IMG/VR virus record: IMGVR_UViG_3300044797_000021
Coordinates: 1 to 22,197 of that record
Strand: one strand, 5' to 3'
Source: a virus
DNA: 22,197 bases
Shown: piece after piece, positions 6,178 through 17,876 of the stretch
Numbering within the stretch: position 1 is the stretch's first letter
How the letters are laid out: every line of letters starts with the position of its first letter
Position numbers and translations under genes: made by a program
Notes under the pieces: generated by a model
Seen by the model: only the letters and a program-made list of their open reading frames with translations
Databases searched by the model: none
Told to the model about the DNA's origin: nothing

Positions 6178-7035
6178 GTGAACACACTGAAGAAACTCGC
6201 TCTTGGACTCCTCGCTTCTCTGGTGGTTCTGCTTTGCCCGACATTTGCTCAGCAGAACTATCTCACCCAAACCTATCTGTCCGCGGCATTGGCAGAGCCT
6301 GCGAGTCCGGGTACGCCTCCGGTTCCGCAAAGCAATGTGCAGGTCAATTCGGCCACTGGCATTACGGCACCGTCATTTAACAGCACTGGCACCATCAATA
6401 CCCAAACTCAATGGCAAATCTACGTTGACCGGGAATTGATGACGGTTGTTGGCGTCAACGGTTCCAACCTCACGGTTCTGCGAGGCCAGGGTGGAACTCG
6501 GGCGACAGGACATGCTTCAGGCGCAATGGTTCTGGCCGGCCATCCGAATTGGTTCTATGTTGCCGATCCTGGTGGAATCAGCGTTCAGGGAATCACGGCA
6601 CCAAGCAGCGCTCCGTGCGTCCTTAGCAATGTCGTTGTTTCTCCCTGGGTCAACATCAGAACCGGCTTGCAATGGGTTTGCAACCCGACTTCGGGCGTGC
6701 TGACTTGGCAGGCTGGCTTCGGGAATCCATACAACCTCTACGACGACAGCATGGCGACGGTGTCATCTGTCGCTGGGGCTACGAACATTTCGTTTCCGAT
6801 GATAACCATATCGGGGACGAATGCGATCACCTCATTCACATTCACGGGTAACGGGGCCATCGGCGTGGCCGGGGCCGCAACAGCAAACCAGGCAATTTCC
6901 AACTTCTGTGTCATTCCAACTGGAGCTTTCACGACCGTTGTGGGAAACAACATCGGATCAGCCCAAACTGCCGTAGTTGGACAGATCATGTGTTGGTATT
7001 GGAACGGGAAGAATGGCACTTGGTTGACCCACTAA
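6178..7035 (+). CDS. Virion-type protein with Sec signal peptide
   Basis: A 285-residue protein that starts at GTG (6178), one base after the coat stop, with a GGGGG run (6168-6172) as ribosome site. The N-terminus is a textbook Sec signal: positive MNTLKK, a hydrophobic core LALGLLASLVVLLC, and a probable cleavage TFA|QQ after residue 24. The following region contains IYVDRELMTVVGV and LTVLRGQGGTRATGHASGA, a motif type I associate with phage structural proteins next to coat genes. The rest is beta-rich, Gly/Ser/Thr-rich and has four cysteines, an even number that would suit disulfides in the periplasm. It is probably a capsid-associated protein, but export is hard to reconcile with cytoplasmic head assembly. 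Function is unknown. Confidence 0.7.
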   Translation: MNTLKKLALGLLASLVVLLCPTFAQQNYLTQTYLSAALAEPASPGTPPVPQSNVQVNSATGITAPSFNSTGTINTQTQWQIYVDRELMTVVGVNGSNLTVLRGQGGTRATGHASGAMVLAGHPNWFYVADPGGISVQGITAPSSAPCVLSNVVVSPWVNIRTGLQWVCNPTSGVLTWQAGFGNPYNLYDDSMATVSSVAGATNISFPMITISGTNAITSFTFTGNGAIGVAGAATANQAISNFCVIPTGAFTTVVGNNIGSAQTAVVGQIMCWYWNGKNGTWLTH

Positions 7036-12154: not shown

Positions 12155-13720
12155 ATGGCGCGCTTCGGACTCATTGGCGGATCATATACTTCTCAGAGCC
12201 TAACGGCCGACGCGCAGCGGACCATGAATTGGTACCCTGAGACTCTAGAGAACCCGCTGGGTAAGGCAAGCATGGCCCTCTACCCGACCCCTGGAACAAG
12301 CCTGTTCTGCACCCTACCGGGAGACGGACCTGTCCGCGGGCAGATTGAAATCAATGGGCTAGCATTCGCAGTGTCGAAGAGCAACTTCTGCCAGGTATTT
12401 CCGAATGGGACTTTTAATGTCATCGCGCAAGTAGCAAACGACAACTTGCCTGTCTCGATGGTGGCGAGTCCGCAGCAATTGCTTATCGCCTCAGCAGGCA
12501 GCCTGTACGTCTACCAGATTCAGGGAACACCCAACTCCCAAAACATCGGCGCTGGGGCCTTCTATCAAGTCCCTAACAGCACATTTACCCTTCCCGGTGG
12601 AGCGCAGCCACTTCCTTTACAAGTCGAATACATTGATGGGTTCTTCCTCGTGCTTCTGCGAGACTCGCAGACAATCTACATTTCGACTCCCCTGGACGCG
12701 ACGAGCTGGCCCGCTTTGCAGCAGATCACTGTCTCAGTATTCTCCGACAACGTGCAGGGAATGATTCAAAATCAGCGTCAACTGTACGTTTACGGCCGTA
12801 AAAGGAGTACGACTTACTACGATTCAGGCAGCCCAAACATCTTCGATGTGAATCCTTCGGGCACCGTCGAGGATGGCATGGTAAGCAACTTCGGATTTTG
12901 CCGGCTCGATAACTCTGTTTTCTGGATTGACCAGGACGAGCGCGGCTCTGGAGTGGTAAGGCGTTACTCGGGCTTCACGCCCACAAGAGTCAGTAATCAC
13001 GCTATCGAGTTTGCCATGCAGGGTTATCCCACAATTTCAGATTGCGTGGCTTATCCCTGCCAGGATCAAGGACACGCCTTTGCCGTGTTCTACTTCCCGA
13101 CCGCAAATAAGACTTGGGTGTATGACGTGGCAACCGGGCAATGGCATGAACGGGGCTACTGGAACGAAAACACCGCATTGTATTCGGCGCACAAGTCGCA
13201 AAATCACATGCTGGCGTTCGGAAAGCATTTGGTGGGGGATCCGACCAGTGGGAATATCTATCAGATGGCCATTCCCTCAACGGCAATCGGCGGCGGCTAC
13301 AACTTCGTGACCGATAACGGCAACCCCATTGTGAGAATGAGGCGATCCCCGCACATCTCGGCGGAAAATAAATACTCGTTCTATAACGAGTTGGTTCTTG
13401 ATATGGAGACAGGGCTCGGGCCGATGCCTCCCCTCCTCGATGGCGCCGGGAATCCTCGCGGGCCTAAAGTCCTGCTCCGTTGGTCCAAAGATTATGCCCA
13501 TACGTGGAGCAATTACTACTCGCTCGATGCAGGACAGGCTGGGCAGTATCGACAGCGAGTAAGGCGCTCGCGCATGGGGCGGGCCAGGGACATGGTTTTT
13601 GAGGTGTCATGCAGCGATCCAATTCCTTGGAGGTTGATCGACGGCTATTTGGATGCTGACGGGCCGAGTCCGTACAAGCCTTCGAGCAGGCTAGCTTTGA
13701 CATACGGGAAGGTAAGCTGA
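12155..13720 (+). CDS. Tail hub / packaged-DNA stabilisation protein, P22 gp10-like
   Basis: P22 gp10 forms the hexameric tail hub that attaches to gp4 and carries the tailspikes. Here the N-terminal motif GGSYTSQSLTADAQRTMNWY (residues 8-27) followed by YPTPGTSLFCTLPGDGPVRG is characteristic of gp10-type hubs (the 'ADAQ/N-YPE...PG' opening). The body is a run of beta blades (LYVYQIQGT, YIDGFFLVLL, TKTWVYDVATGQWHERG-like segments) in keeping with a propeller, and 521 residues compares with 472 in P22. The start lies one base after the preceding stop. Synteny with the gp4-like gene supports the call. Confidence 0.8.
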   Translation: MARFGLIGGSYTSQSLTADAQRTMNWYPETLENPLGKASMALYPTPGTSLFCTLPGDGPVRGQIEINGLAFAVSKSNFCQVFPNGTFNVIAQVANDNLPVSMVASPQQLLIASAGSLYVYQIQGTPNSQNIGAGAFYQVPNSTFTLPGGAQPLPLQVEYIDGFFLVLLRDSQTIYISTPLDATSWPALQQITVSVFSDNVQGMIQNQRQLYVYGRKRSTTYYDSGSPNIFDVNPSGTVEDGMVSNFGFCRLDNSVFWIDQDERGSGVVRRYSGFTPTRVSNHAIEFAMQGYPTISDCVAYPCQDQGHAFAVFYFPTANKTWVYDVATGQWHERGYWNENTALYSAHKSQNHMLAFGKHLVGDPTSGNIYQMAIPSTAIGGGYNFVTDNGNPIVRMRRSPHISAENKYSFYNELVLDMETGLGPMPPLLDGAGNPRGPKVLLRWSKDYAHTWSNYYSLDAGQAGQYRQRVRRSRMGRARDMVFEVSCSDPIPWRLIDGYLDADGPSPYKPSSRLALTYGKVS

Positions 13721-13959
13721 TGGCCAACCCTGTCCAGCGACCCCCAGATGATCCGACGAAGCCCACGACTACCTTCTGGACAAATTGGTGGGCAGCGTTG
13801 ACAGCCCCAGCTAGTCCGGTGGCTCCTCCGGCAACTTCATCGACGCCGGGGATAGCAGGGCAGTTAGCTTTCAGTTCGACGTATTTGTATGTGTGCATTC
13901 AATCAAACAGTCCGACACAGGCGGCGATATGGAAACGGATCGCGTTAGCAGCATTTTGA
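13720..13959 (+). CDS. Small tail-region protein
   Basis: A 79-residue protein whose ATG shares its A with the stop of the hub gene (TGATG). The first half is Pro/Thr-rich with an aromatic patch (TTTFWTNWWAALTAP); the second half is a compact beta module ending in YLYVCIQSNSPTQAAIWKRI, a strand pair that is common at the C-terminus of small phage tail proteins (YVC...WKR-A). It occupies the position where P22 encodes the tail needle gp26, but lacks the long trimeric coiled coil of a needle. Its last 31 bases overlap the acyl carrier protein-like gene. Confidence 0.7.
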   Translation: MANPVQRPPDDPTKPTTTFWTNWWAALTAPASPVAPPATSSTPGIAGQLAFSSTYLYVCIQSNSPTQAAIWKRIALAAF

Positions 13960-14150
13960 TTGGGCTTCTCTCTGAGGCAAGCGGTCGCCCCGAAGAAGAG
14001 ATTAGCGTCGTGGATCGACTGGAGGACTTTTCTCTGGATTCTCTTGAGTTCGTAGAGTTCATGCAGGAAGTCTCGAAGATCAAGCCGATTCCTCAGGATA
14101 AGTGGGCGACATTCGACACAGTAGGGGACCTGATAAGGGCGGTTGAGTGA
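13929..14150 (+). CDS. Acyl carrier protein-like protein
   Basis: A 73-residue protein with the size and helix plan of a stand-alone acyl carrier protein. Helix I is RVSSILIGLLSEASG. The loop and helix II contain LEDFSLDSLEFVEFMQEVSK, in which DSL (Ser38) is the 4'-phosphopantetheine attachment motif with the usual 'ED-x-x-x-DSLE-VE' context. The last part (ATFDTVGDLIRAVE) matches the family's helix IV ('TV-DL---V'). The ATG at 13929 was chosen because it starts just before helix I, with GGCGG nearby; a GTG at 13893 would add 12 residues inside the preceding gene. The gene ends in a four-base overlap with the GNAT gene (GTGA). Activation would need a host phosphopantetheinyl transferase, as none is seen here. 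Recognition is by motif and size. Confidence 0.75.
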   Translation: METDRVSSILIGLLSEASGRPEEEISVVDRLEDFSLDSLEFVEFMQEVSKIKPIPQDKWATFDTVGDLIRAVE

Positions 14151-14602
14151 GCACGACATTTCAAGTCGAGAAGTGGAGCGATTGCCTCTCTGAATTGAGG
14201 CCATTGTTTGCTTTTCTTTGGAAGGATGTAGCAGTTGACCAAGATCGGTTCGTTGCGAAGTGCGAGGAATCAAAATACAAAGCACTCGAAGAGGCCGGGG
14301 CACTTTGCCTCACCACGATGAGGATTGAAGGGAAGTTGGTAGGTTTCTATGCCGCGCTGATTCTTCCCAACCCTCACTATGAGGGGCAAGGGAAGATGGT
14401 ATACACGGATATGTATTTTGTGCTTCCGGTGATGCGGCGCGGGAATCTTGGCCTGAAACTATTCACATTTTCTGAAAAGGTCTGGAAGCAATGGGGAGCG
14501 GTAAAAGCCTACTCCAGCCATAAGATTCATCGGGACCGTAGCAAAATGCTCCAGGCGCTCGGTTGGAAAGCAACAGACACGGTATATAGCAAGATTCTTT
14601 AG
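14147..14602 (+). CDS. GNAT-family acyltransferase
   Basis: A 151-residue GNAT enzyme, which would move an acyl group from CoA or a carrier protein to an amine. The core shows a strand pair (LCLTTMRIEGKLVGFYAALI, about 53-72), then YTDMYFVLPVMRRGNLGLKL (86-105), in which R97-R-G-N-L-G102 is the pyrophosphate-binding loop region of motif A, followed by helix FTFSEKVWKQWGAVKAY and the C-terminal SKMLQALGWKATDTVYSKIL typical of the family's last strands. The GTG start overlaps the ACP-like stop (GTGA), so the two are co-translated. GNATs are common among podovirus structural genes; direct coupling to an ACP is not. The substrate is not deducible. Confidence 0.8.
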   Translation: MSTTFQVEKWSDCLSELRPLFAFLWKDVAVDQDRFVAKCEESKYKALEEAGALCLTTMRIEGKLVGFYAALILPNPHYEGQGKMVYTDMYFVLPVMRRGNLGLKLFTFSEKVWKQWGAVKAYSSHKIHRDRSKMLQALGWKATDTVYSKIL

Positions 14603-14610: not shown

Positions 14611-15477
14611 ACGTCAACCGTTGCGATAGGGTCAATAGCAGCAGCAGGAATCGGAGCCGTAGGTTCAGGACTTGCTGCGTCCACTCAGGCTGGAGCCGCC
14701 GAGAGCGCCCAAGCATTACAGGCCCAAGAAGCCCAAAATGCTCTCAATTTCCAAGAGCAAGAATGGAATACCCAGCAGCAGAACTTGCAGCCGTGGCTTC
14801 AGGCGGGCGGTAGTGCCGTCACAAATCTGTCTTCGATGCTTAACGGCACGCCGGGAACGTCTACGCCATCGACAATCGGCGGGGCGCAATACAACCTTCA
14901 GGAAGGCAATGGCGGCCTGCTTGAGCCTTGGAACAACCAATTTCAGGCACCCACGGCAGCGCAAGCCGAACAGACTCCGGGTTATCAGTTCACTCTCGGA
15001 CAGGGTGAACAGGCGGTCCAAAACTCAGCGGCAGCCAGCGGTGGATTACTTACAGGCGGGACGCTCAAGGCGACAACGGGCTATGCGGAAGGGCTTGCAG
15101 ACACGACGTATCAGCAGACCTACCAGAACGCCCTGCAGCAGTATCAGCAGGCTTACAATCAGTTCCAGAACAACCAGACCAACACATTCAATCGGCTCTC
15201 AGGGGTCTCAGGAGTTGGTCAGACGGCGGCTACGAATCTCGGACAACAAGGGCAGGCTGCGGCATCGAACGTCGGGAGCATCAATCTCACGACCGGCGCA
15301 CAACAAGGCCAGCAATTGAACAACGCAGGAGCAGCCACGGCTAGCGGATACACGGGAGTCGCGAACTCATTGTCAGGCGGAATTAGCAACATTGCTGGTT
15401 CTCTGACTTTGCAGCAACTATTGGCGGGGCAGAACCAGAATCCAACATCAACGACTTTGCCATACGGAGGCTACTAG
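14611..15477 (+). CDS. Probable ejection / internal virion protein with ACG start
   Basis: A 288-residue protein if translated from ACG at 14611. The frame is closed by TAG at 14587 and has no ATG, GTG or TTG before TTG at 14785, yet the first 58 codons read as a continuous family-type N-terminus: a small-residue hydrophobic stretch (GSIAAAAGIGAVGSGLAAST) followed by an Ala/Gln/Glu helix (QALQAQEAQNALNFQEQEWN) that runs unbroken into QPWLQAGGSAVTNL. Then come a PGYQFTLGQGEQAVQN region and a Gln/Asn/Ala-rich helical C-terminal half (QQYQQAYNQFQNNQTNTFNR). This organisation is common to podovirus internal proteins and some genes annotated as DNA transfer proteins. It is followed directly by two more ejection-type genes, as P22 gp7-gp20-gp16. 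Confidence 0.7.
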   Translation, partial: TSTVAIGSIAAAGIGAVGSGLAASTQAGAAESAQALQAQEAQNALNFQEQEWNTQQQNLQPWLQAGGSAVTNLSSMLNGTPGTSTPSTIGGAQYNLQEGNGGLLEPWNNQFQAPTAAQAEQTPGYQFTLGQGEQAVQNSAAASGGLLTGGTLKATTGYAEGLADTTYQQTYQNALQQYQQAYNQFQNNQTNTFNRLSGVSGVGQTAATNLGQQGQAAASNVGSINLTTGAQQGQQLNNAGAATASGYTGVANSLSGGISNIAGSLTLQQLLAGQNQNPTSTTLPYGGY

Positions 15478-16944
15478 GTGGCGAGCATACCCCTTTTAGC
15501 TACGACAATCCGACCGCCAGAGAATCCGTTAGATCAATATGCTAAAGCTCTGTCCGTCCAGTCGATGATTCAAGGGCAGCAACTCCAAAAGACGCAGTTG
15601 GCTGGGGAGCAACAAGCACAGCAGCAGCGCGCTGCATTGTTTCCAGGGCAGCTTCAGGAGCAAGAAAATCTCACGGCCGGTTCGGGGATTGATCTGCAAA
15701 TGAAGCAATTGGGACTCAAGAATGCCCAAATCACCAACTCCGCATTGAGCGATCCGAATCTGTCGAGTGAACTAGATGAATGGCAGAAGCAGAAAGGTGG
15801 GGACCAGGAAGCGCCAACAGGAGGCACGGGCATTCAGCTTCACCCCTTGGCTCAGTTCCTCATGGAGAAGAGAGGATTGCCGGCACTTGGCCCTGGCGGG
15901 GCGCTTGAAATCTCCAAGAACCTTACCGAGAGCGCACAGCAAATGGCGACTCTTATTAAGACGCAGGGCGATGCGGCGACGTCGAAATTGACGGCCTATG
16001 GCAAGCAGATCGACAATCTGACAAACGCGGCGGCACCGATCTTCGAGGAAGCCGATCCAGCCAAGCAGCAGAATGCTTTAGGAACATTCAAGAATACCGT
16101 ACTCGCCAATCCGACTGATTACCCTCCTGAATTAGTGAAGCAAGTTCAGGGTATCAACACTGTTGGCGATCTGGCGAAGATGACCAATTATGCCAAGATG
16201 CATGAAACGGTAATCGAGGACGCGCAAAAGGCGGCTGAAGCATCGCAGAAAGTCACGGCTGCCGCACCTCCAACATTCCAGCAGCAATCGGATGCCAAGA
16301 ACACGCTGGCAAGCTACTTGGCGATTCCCGCTCCGCAAAGAGCAGGACTGGCGCAGGAGATGTCTCACGCCCCAGATTTCGAGAGTTTGCAGAAGATTCA
16401 GGCCCGGGCAGATGAAACACAGAAGTCATTCCAGATGTCAGCCGATGCCCGTCAGAATGCGATGGCGATGAAGGACGTAGCTGTGGGTCAGGCAATGGCG
16501 ACACAACTCATCGGAGAGGACAAAGCCCTCGGAACCAACCTCGACCAGACACGGGGCATTCGTGGGTTGCTCGATATGAGTACCGGAGGGAATCAGGCGG
16601 CGACCGCAGCGGCCCAGACACGCTTCGCGGAGCACGAAATTGTCGAGGGTGGCGTCAAGAGAATGAACCAAGTGGAATACGAAAACTTGGCTGGCTCGCT
16701 CGGTTCCTACGGGCGTAAGTTTCAGTCATGGGTCGATGGCGGATTCAAGGGTCAGATGCCCCCTGCAACGAATGGAGAAATGGCGAAGATTCTTGACGCC
16801 GAAGATGCGACCGCGACAGCAGCGCACCAACGCAACGTCGGATTCATTCAGGATCGCTTCTCGGCTATAAATAAGGGCGGTTTGCCGACGCAGGCGAATC
16901 CGGCAGCTAAGCCCGTGAATAACGATCCGTTGGGGATCCGATGA
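15478..16944 (+). CDS. Probable internal virion (ejection) protein
   Basis: A 488-residue protein, GTG start directly after the previous stop, with GGAGG (15466-15470) in front. The N-terminus (ENPLDQYAKALSVQSMIQGQ, then a Gln/Ala-rich helix) is of the type seen in podovirus internal virion proteins. The remainder is almost entirely helical and Ala/Gln/Lys-rich, with no enzyme motif. The order and length match the second ejection protein of P22-type phages (gp20, 471 residues). Such proteins leave the head ahead of the DNA and build a conduit across the host envelope. The stop overlaps the next start (ATGA). Assignment is by position and composition. Confidence 0.65.
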   Translation: MASIPLLATTIRPPENPLDQYAKALSVQSMIQGQQLQKTQLAGEQQAQQQRAALFPGQLQEQENLTAGSGIDLQMKQLGLKNAQITNSALSDPNLSSELDEWQKQKGGDQEAPTGGTGIQLHPLAQFLMEKRGLPALGPGGALEISKNLTESAQQMATLIKTQGDAATSKLTAYGKQIDNLTNAAAPIFEEADPAKQQNALGTFKNTVLANPTDYPPELVKQVQGINTVGDLAKMTNYAKMHETVIEDAQKAAEASQKVTAAAPPTFQQQSDAKNTLASYLAIPAPQRAGLAQEMSHAPDFESLQKIQARADETQKSFQMSADARQNAMAMKDVAVGQAMATQLIGEDKALGTNLDQTRGIRGLLDMSTGGNQAATAAAQTRFAEHEIVEGGVKRMNQVEYENLAGSLGSYGRKFQSWVDGGFKGQMPPATNGEMAKILDAEDATATAAHQRNVGFIQDRFSAINKGGLPTQANPAAKPVNNDPLGIR

Positions 16945-17876
16945 CAACTACCGCCAATCCCATCGTTACCCAACTCAGCCAAGGACTTAATCCTCTGGTC
17001 GATAAAATACGGGCAACCCATCCGGGTGCCTATGATGACCTCAGTGATGCGGAGCTTACCGCGAAAGTGGTAGCGAAATATCCCCAATATGGAGACTTGG
17101 CAGCGCCGTATGATAAGACGAACGCCCTAGCTATGAATCAGGCTCACGGTGCCGTCTCCTTGATGGGCCATCCAGCATCTTCGCAGGCGCAAGACACGGC
17201 ATTTGACGAAGCCCTGAAATCTCCCAGCGCCCCGAAAAATCCCCTTTACCTTTCTGGGCCAACTCCAGAAGTCCCGAAGGGAATGGATGCAGTTGCTCAC
17301 ATCGCGGAGAGCATTCCGGCCGTGGCTGGTGCGGCTGCATCTTTCGTTCCTGCCGAGGGGCTTATCTCTGGTGCCAGCAATATCCCAACTGCCGCAAAGG
17401 CTGGTGCTGCATTGCGGGACGTGAAGGCCGTTGCCGGCGGCGTTCCTATCGACATCTCTGAAGCTGGCAATACTGCCCTTGAAATGATGACTCAAAAAGA
17501 GCGCGGTGGACAGCTCCCCCAAGCGGTGAGGCAGCTCGTGAGTCGTTTCACCGACCCGAGCAAGGGACCAATCACCTACGAGGAAGCGAAGGACTTCCAG
17601 TCGAACATCTCTAATCTATCGGCGAATGAAAAAATGGCACTCAAGCCGAATACTGTTCGCCTTCTTGGGCAACTGAATTCCAATCTAAAGGACGCTCTAG
17701 AATCTGCTGCGGACACCCAAGGTAAGGGACAGCAATTCGTTAACGCCATGAAGGACTACCACAATGCCATGAGGATCAGGGGGATGTCCGACGCTGCCAA
17801 AGAAGCCGCGTGGCGGGCCGCATTGGGTGCAGCGGGAGTTTACGGAGCAAAGAAAATATGGGACGCGGGACAATGA
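16941..17876 (+). CDS. Probable ejection protein (third internal virion protein)
   Basis: A 311-residue protein coupled to the preceding gene through ATGA (16941-16944). The first 50 residues contain IRATHPGAYDDLSDAELTAK followed by VVAKYPQYGD, a motif often found at the N-terminus of podovirus ejection and internal proteins. A Pro/Ala-rich linker follows, then an Ala/Val-rich hydrophobic stretch (ESIPAVAGAAASFVPA) that could insert in a membrane, and a helical C-terminus. P22 gp16 is 609 residues, so this protein is much shorter, but the place in the cluster is the same. Its stop overlaps the next start (ATGA). No lytic transglycosylase motif is recognised. Confidence 0.65.
   Translation: MTTTANPIVTQLSQGLNPLVDKIRATHPGAYDDLSDAELTAKVVAKYPQYGDLAAPYDKTNALAMNQAHGAVSLMGHPASSQAQDTAFDEALKSPSAPKNPLYLSGPTPEVPKGMDAVAHIAESIPAVAGAAASFVPAEGLISGASNIPTAAKAGAALRDVKAVAGGVPIDISEAGNTALEMMTQKERGGQLPQAVRQLVSRFTDPSKGPITYEEAKDFQSNISNLSANEKMALKPNTVRLLGQLNSNLKDALESAADTQGKGQQFVNAMKDYHNAMRIRGMSDAAKEAAWRAALGAAGVYGAKKIWDAGQ

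Follow-up and report, generated by a model that had tools for sequence, protein, structure and literature searches.

An acyl carrier protein (ACP) gene, a GNAT-fold acyltransferase gene and a DNA ejection protein gene follow one another in the late module of an IMG/VR virus contig, and the same order recurs in related phages. It is quite possible, if somewhat short of probable, that the three form a single cassette in which the GNAT N-alpha-acylates the ejection protein while the ACP serves as acyl donor; both the acylation target and the acyl donor are what we infer. In agreement with an earlier note on this DNA, no phage system of the ACP-GNAT kind was found described in the open-licence PMC papers searched.

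The window, i.e. the whole stretch analysed, comprises 22,197 nucleotides (positions 1 to 22,197 of record IMGVR_UViG_3300044797_000021). On this contig, profile matches identified an ejection gene of the gp7 type, along with an Hc3/gp10 gene and a P22-like portal. The genes relevant here are the following:

12155..13720, + strand, head closure Hc3 / P22 gp10-like protein (phrog_578, E 6e-84)
13720..13959, + strand, tail-associated protein of 79 aa, lying between gp10 and the ACP (tail protein phrog_17312, E 7e-7)
13929..14150, + strand, acyl carrier protein (ACP), 73 aa, with Ser38 in LDSLEF (PF00550, AF2 model)
14147..14602, + strand, GNAT-fold acyltransferase, 151 aa, GTG start (PF00583, phrog_1249, AF2 model)
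14611..15477, + strand, gp7/gp14-like DNA ejection protein, probable ACG start (phrog_598; start taken from relatives)
15478..16944, + strand, second ejection-block protein, in the position of P22 gp20 (by gene order only)
16941..17876, + strand, third ejection-block protein, in the position of P22 gp16 (by gene order only)

Pfam and phrog profile searches gave no family match for the last two products. With the Hc3/gp10-like gene upstream, the phrog_598 gene downstream and the P22-like portal on the same contig, the placement of the pair in a tail/ejection block, as proposed in the earlier note, is borne out. Small genes resembling that for the 79-aa tail-associated protein are also found in L012, L014, L250 and L266. 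By eye, several late virion or fibre-like proteins have Sec signal peptide-like starts (e.g. MKRYLAWLFLFALFGPSAYAQ; window positions 6178, 8798, about 17873 and 19637), as is also the case in L002 and L014, which is odd for virion proteins. The MAGs holding related loci in a survey baited with the gp10-like protein are named Acidobacteria, Acidiferrales and Sulfotelmatobacter. Soil Acidobacteria are probably the hosts of this virus group, and only probably, because binned phage contigs can be misassigned.

The stand-alone 73-residue gene with its DSL motif lies exactly where it had been placed by the first reading, and its product is an acyl carrier protein with a phosphopantetheine-type serine, as judged from sequence and predicted fold. 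Its PF00550 match scores 26.9 bits against a cut-off of 20.8 (E 2.6e-7 on the window), and the AF2 model (pLDDT 91.6) is a helical bundle of the ACP type, with a TM of about 0.8 to E. coli AcpP and other ACPs. The earlier note had made conservation of Ser38 in homologues a point to check; the DSL serine is invariant in alignments of 5 and 6 sequences and retained in further relatives, even where these ACPs share only 24-41% identity with that of the window. The ACPs of L205, L208, L215, L230 and L201 pass the Pfam cut-off independently; that of L217 does not. Neither the window ACP nor the L002 ACP gave a match when used to search annotated phages. Other phage ACPs (phrog_5934; Vibrio, Prochlorococcus and Caulobacter phages) share the same fold and occur mostly in large-genome phages.

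The GTG start of the GNAT gene overlaps the ACP stop by GTGA, exactly as had been noted. The gene product is a member of phrog_1249 with, by its predicted structure, an intact fold (PF00583, 23.4 bits against a cut-off of 20.7; phrog_1249, E 6e-11; AF2 pLDDT 94.4; PDB GNAT folds matched at E 4e-9), confirming its assignment as a GNAT acyltransferase. E8, A29, Y44, R59, G66, H77, D88, R97, G99 and K126 are invariant in 36 divergent GNATs. The candidate pyrophosphate loop reads R-x-G-x-x-G, an apparent variant of Q/R-x-x-G-x-G/A, with Arg97 and Gly99 invariant and Gly102 mostly kept in these sequences. At least 565 relatives turned up in viral contigs, and a genome-contig scan with the GNAT gave no match. 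The nearest PDB folds (the 50 best) belong to acetyl-CoA GNATs, AAC and RimI among them, and this counts against the proposed N-acylation with the ACP as donor. The likeness to LuxI, HlyC and FeeM drawn in the earlier note did not translate into membership, as none of these families was matched in Pfam at E ≤ 1 or among those 50 folds. The window GNAT may nevertheless work like LuxI, FeeM or HlyC, though it is not a detectable member; it is the adjacent ACP that hints at acyl-ACP use.

A scan for close relatives with the GNAT returned three contigs, all of which (3/3) carry an ACP directly upstream of the GNAT, and a scan with the ACP alignment added two more. The survey baited with the gp10-like protein of the window added 79 viral loci and three from Acidobacteria MAGs, and recovered L021 a second time. 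By profiles, the order ACP, GNAT, ejection protein is present in L201, L204, L205 (with near-copies L206 and L214), L208, L209, L210, L211, L215, L217, L221, L229, L230 and L021, four of which are contigs also held under a second name (L204=L014, L209=L012, L229=L003 and L021=L002). Together with the window and L004, which is cut before the ejection gene, this brings profile-detected ACP-GNAT adjacency to 15 distinct contigs. Wherever an ACP-GNAT contig continues, a P22-gp7/T7-gp14-like ejection gene follows the GNAT. In the gp10-baited survey the GNAT adjoins every profile-detected ACP except that of L252, which lies at the contig end. An NTGA overlap of about 4 nt is found at the ACP/GNAT junction in most loci and at the GNAT/gp7 junction in several. 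As 15 distinct contigs share the adjacency, with the ejection gene next on those that run on past the GNAT, the ACP beside the GNAT is no chance neighbour, and this co-conservation also rules out a chance or mis-called open reading frame.

The earlier note had named GNAT relatives that lack an ACP and use acetyl-CoA only as evidence against its reading, and this applies in part: in the wider GNAT family (phrog_1249), which spans podo- and siphophages, an ACP was found in 0 of 50 records, so the ACP is a clade-specific addition. A tree of 34 GNATs places those with an ACP in one clade of 14 (support 96/98), made up of 13 ACP rows and one, L250, with no profile-detected ACP, and none of 500 shuffles of the ACP label clustered as tightly. 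By eye, and with no Pfam support, L250 shows an in-frame fusion of a DSL-containing segment to the GNAT, while in L266, outside the 14-row clade, an ACP-like open reading frame with DSL overlaps the GNAT. In L230, an ACP is paired with a GNAT of another subfamily. In the related phages L202, L203, L207, L212, L238, L241, L243, L249 and L267, the gene that immediately precedes the ejection gene is a GNAT of another or a shortened type, and the ejection proteins that follow mostly start with MP.

GNATs of the same family or fold are known from BPP-1 (bbp24), VpV262 (ORFS), ZP6 (ORF12), SIO1 (pc40) and CRP-4, where they occupy this slot ahead of the ejection or internal virion genes; unlike the window, the records tested have no ACP. 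Published accounts, in the passages available, make no mention of an ACP for the GNATs of ZP6 and Cobaviruses (same slot) and CRP-4/5 (late module). Limnohabitans phage DC33 (PQ492659.1, L011) carries a GNAT and a BPP-1-like late gene; it is filed under Inoviridae at 39 kb, a taxonomy that looks wrong.

The gene downstream of the GNAT matches phrog_598 ('DNA ejection') on the TTG start at 14785 proposed by the ORF finder. Its start is, however, most likely the ACG at 14611, since relatives have ATG or GTG at this point before STVAI and so begin MSTVAI. A Shine-Dalgarno AGGAG stands five bases before this ACG, from which the predicted N-terminus is (M)STVAIGSIAAAGIGAVGS. MSTVAI is invariant in five ejection proteins, among which there is no conserved lysine. 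A tblastn search of annotated phages with the gp7-like protein gave no match. In L215, the ejection gene probably starts at an ATA overlapping the GNAT stop; L215 and L221 were left out of the counts of residue 2 given below, their start codons being uncertain.

Across the family, in podo- and siphophages, the gene right after the GNAT appears to encode a membrane-active tail or ejection protein, either gp14/gp7-like or a J-like tail-tip protein (sequences read by eye, J by homology), which mostly starts M-[A/G/S] followed by a hydrophobic Gly/Ala-rich stretch. Related ejection or tail proteins without GNAT or ACP often start M-P. In the siphophage set, residue 2 is A, G, S or T in 36/37 proteins beside a GNAT versus 18/47 beside DUF6950, Pro in 0/37 versus 24/47, and an M[AGST][IVL] start is found in 32/37 versus 0/47. 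In the acidobacterial phages, Pro at residue 2 occurs in 0/11 proteins with ACP and GNAT versus 20/33 of the rest (p 3e-4; the rows are related rather than independent, so such p-values are too small and indicative only), and in 0/13 versus 20/31 when the two by-eye ACP-like open reading frames are added. The contrast emerged from the data instead of being predicted beforehand, and it has exceptions. SP6 gp35 begins MAIGTAL with no GNAT before its gene, VpV262 has a GNAT and its ORFT begins MSKAVRF, L235 and L256 have a GNAT but MP ejection proteins, and L230 has ACP and GNAT yet an MP ejection protein. Tail-tip proteins after DUF6950 also have a hydrophobic N-terminus without a GNAT, so that hydrophobicity alone is not specific. 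In siphophages L103-L108 and L110-L189, DUF6950 occupies the slot directly before the J-like protein that is otherwise the GNAT's, and the J-like proteins that follow often start MP; hhalign found no homology between the GNAT and DUF6950.

In the proposed mechanism, a host phosphopantetheinyl transferase would load the phage ACP, host fatty-acid enzymes would charge it, and the GNAT would transfer the acyl group to the ejection protein while this is being made, at the free alpha-amine of a Ser, Ala or Gly exposed once Met is removed. The modification might prime the N-terminal hydrophobic Gly/Ala-rich segment for virion packing or outer membrane insertion. In the wider family the same GNAT would draw on a CoA thioester (acetyl-CoA, probably), and the donor would have changed in the ACP clade. 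The N-terminal residue statistics are what suggest a RimI-like N-alpha-acyltransferase role, and RimI-type enzymes, which act on the protein N-terminus, resemble the window GNAT in fold (TM about 0.70-0.78); unlike the window cassette they use acetyl-CoA and no ACP. N-alpha-acylation fits most because, once Met is gone, a Pro at residue 2 offers no primary amine and because no lysine is conserved among five relatives of the ejection protein. An acylated N-terminus would also have a use, since T7 gp14 is ejected before any other protein and forms a pore in the outer membrane (PMC8954989). On the other hand, the small residue 2 could serve Met removal only. No report of N-terminal acetylation of phage virion proteins was found among the open-licence PMC papers listed. 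Where the earlier note had an acylated virion protein, perhaps an ejection protein or fibre, gene placement makes the ejection protein the most economical candidate target.

The slot itself allows a different reading, one that we judge unlikely: the GNAT would serve the ejection protein as chaperone or assembly factor, catalysing little or nothing, and the ACP would be a structural partner. T7 gp13 and P22 gp14, small morphogenesis proteins, sit directly before gp14/gp7 just as the window GNAT does, T7 gp13 is called a probable scaffold protein, PMC6775973 sees in it a possible counterpart of the SIO1 GNAT, and ACPs appear in the PDB list as subunits of other complexes. Invariance of the P-loop Arg/Gly and other residues in 36 divergent GNATs and retention of the ACP serine nevertheless argue against this reading. 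T7 gp13 (PF11090) and P22 gp14 (DUF2824) form Pfam families of their own, and hhalign detects no relation of their sequences to that of the GNAT (E 0.12-0.16, probability below 1%, on shallow alignments). By eye, P22 gp14 (L197, 1912-2367), directly before gp7, has the look of a degenerate GNAT, which profile comparison did not confirm. It is rather improbable that acetyl-CoA is the donor with which the GNAT acetylates the ejection protein, as is presumed of the wider family, and that the ACP has a separate role. Relatives without an ACP and the fold nearest AAC and RimI agree with this reading; the position of the ACP does not, as it adjoins GNATs of two subfamilies and in most cases overlaps them.

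HlyC-type RTX acyltransferases have a GNAT-like fold, take acyl-ACP as donor and are encoded directly upstream of a pore-forming protein, a logic analogous to that of the window. We give a slim chance to HlyC-like lysine acylation of the ejection protein or fibre, as the HlyC-type enzymes act on lysine and use host ACP, whereas the ejection protein (one gp7-like type, five relatives) has no conserved lysine and the window GNAT has no RTX acyltransferase profile match or top fold match. FeeM/FeeL, an N-acyl amino acid synthase in which a GNAT has its own ACP, sets, with LuxI, a precedent for a small-molecule product, such as an N-acyl amino acid or lactone signal; FeeM/FeeL lies outside any virion module. 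Alternatively a host surface molecule or host protein might be modified, and PMC7552054 describes a phage GNAT, Rac, that acts on host RNA polymerase. Taken together, such small-molecule and host targets seem no less improbable than lysine acylation, given the fixed late-module position beside a membrane-active virion gene in podo- and siphophages and the lack of a LuxI or FeeM match; the lipid signal and host-surface modification offered in the earlier note thus gained no support here.

Should N-acylation of the ejection protein by the ACP-GNAT pair hold true, phages would chemically prime their genome-ejection pore, and this phage-encoded lipidation would be what N-myristoylation of capsid proteins is in eukaryotic viruses. 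Phage genomes often carry late-module GNATs, which have so far been guessed to change host metabolism or to be equivalents of T7 gp13. A direct, testable function follows from their fixed link to a membrane-active protein whose N-terminus could be acylated, and the ACP clade is the clearest case. The full proposal, in which carrier-protein-dependent lipidation N-acylates an outer-membrane-penetrating ejection protein and late-module GNATs in podo- and siphophages act as N-terminal acyltransferases dedicated to membrane-penetrating proteins, is somewhat doubtful as a whole.
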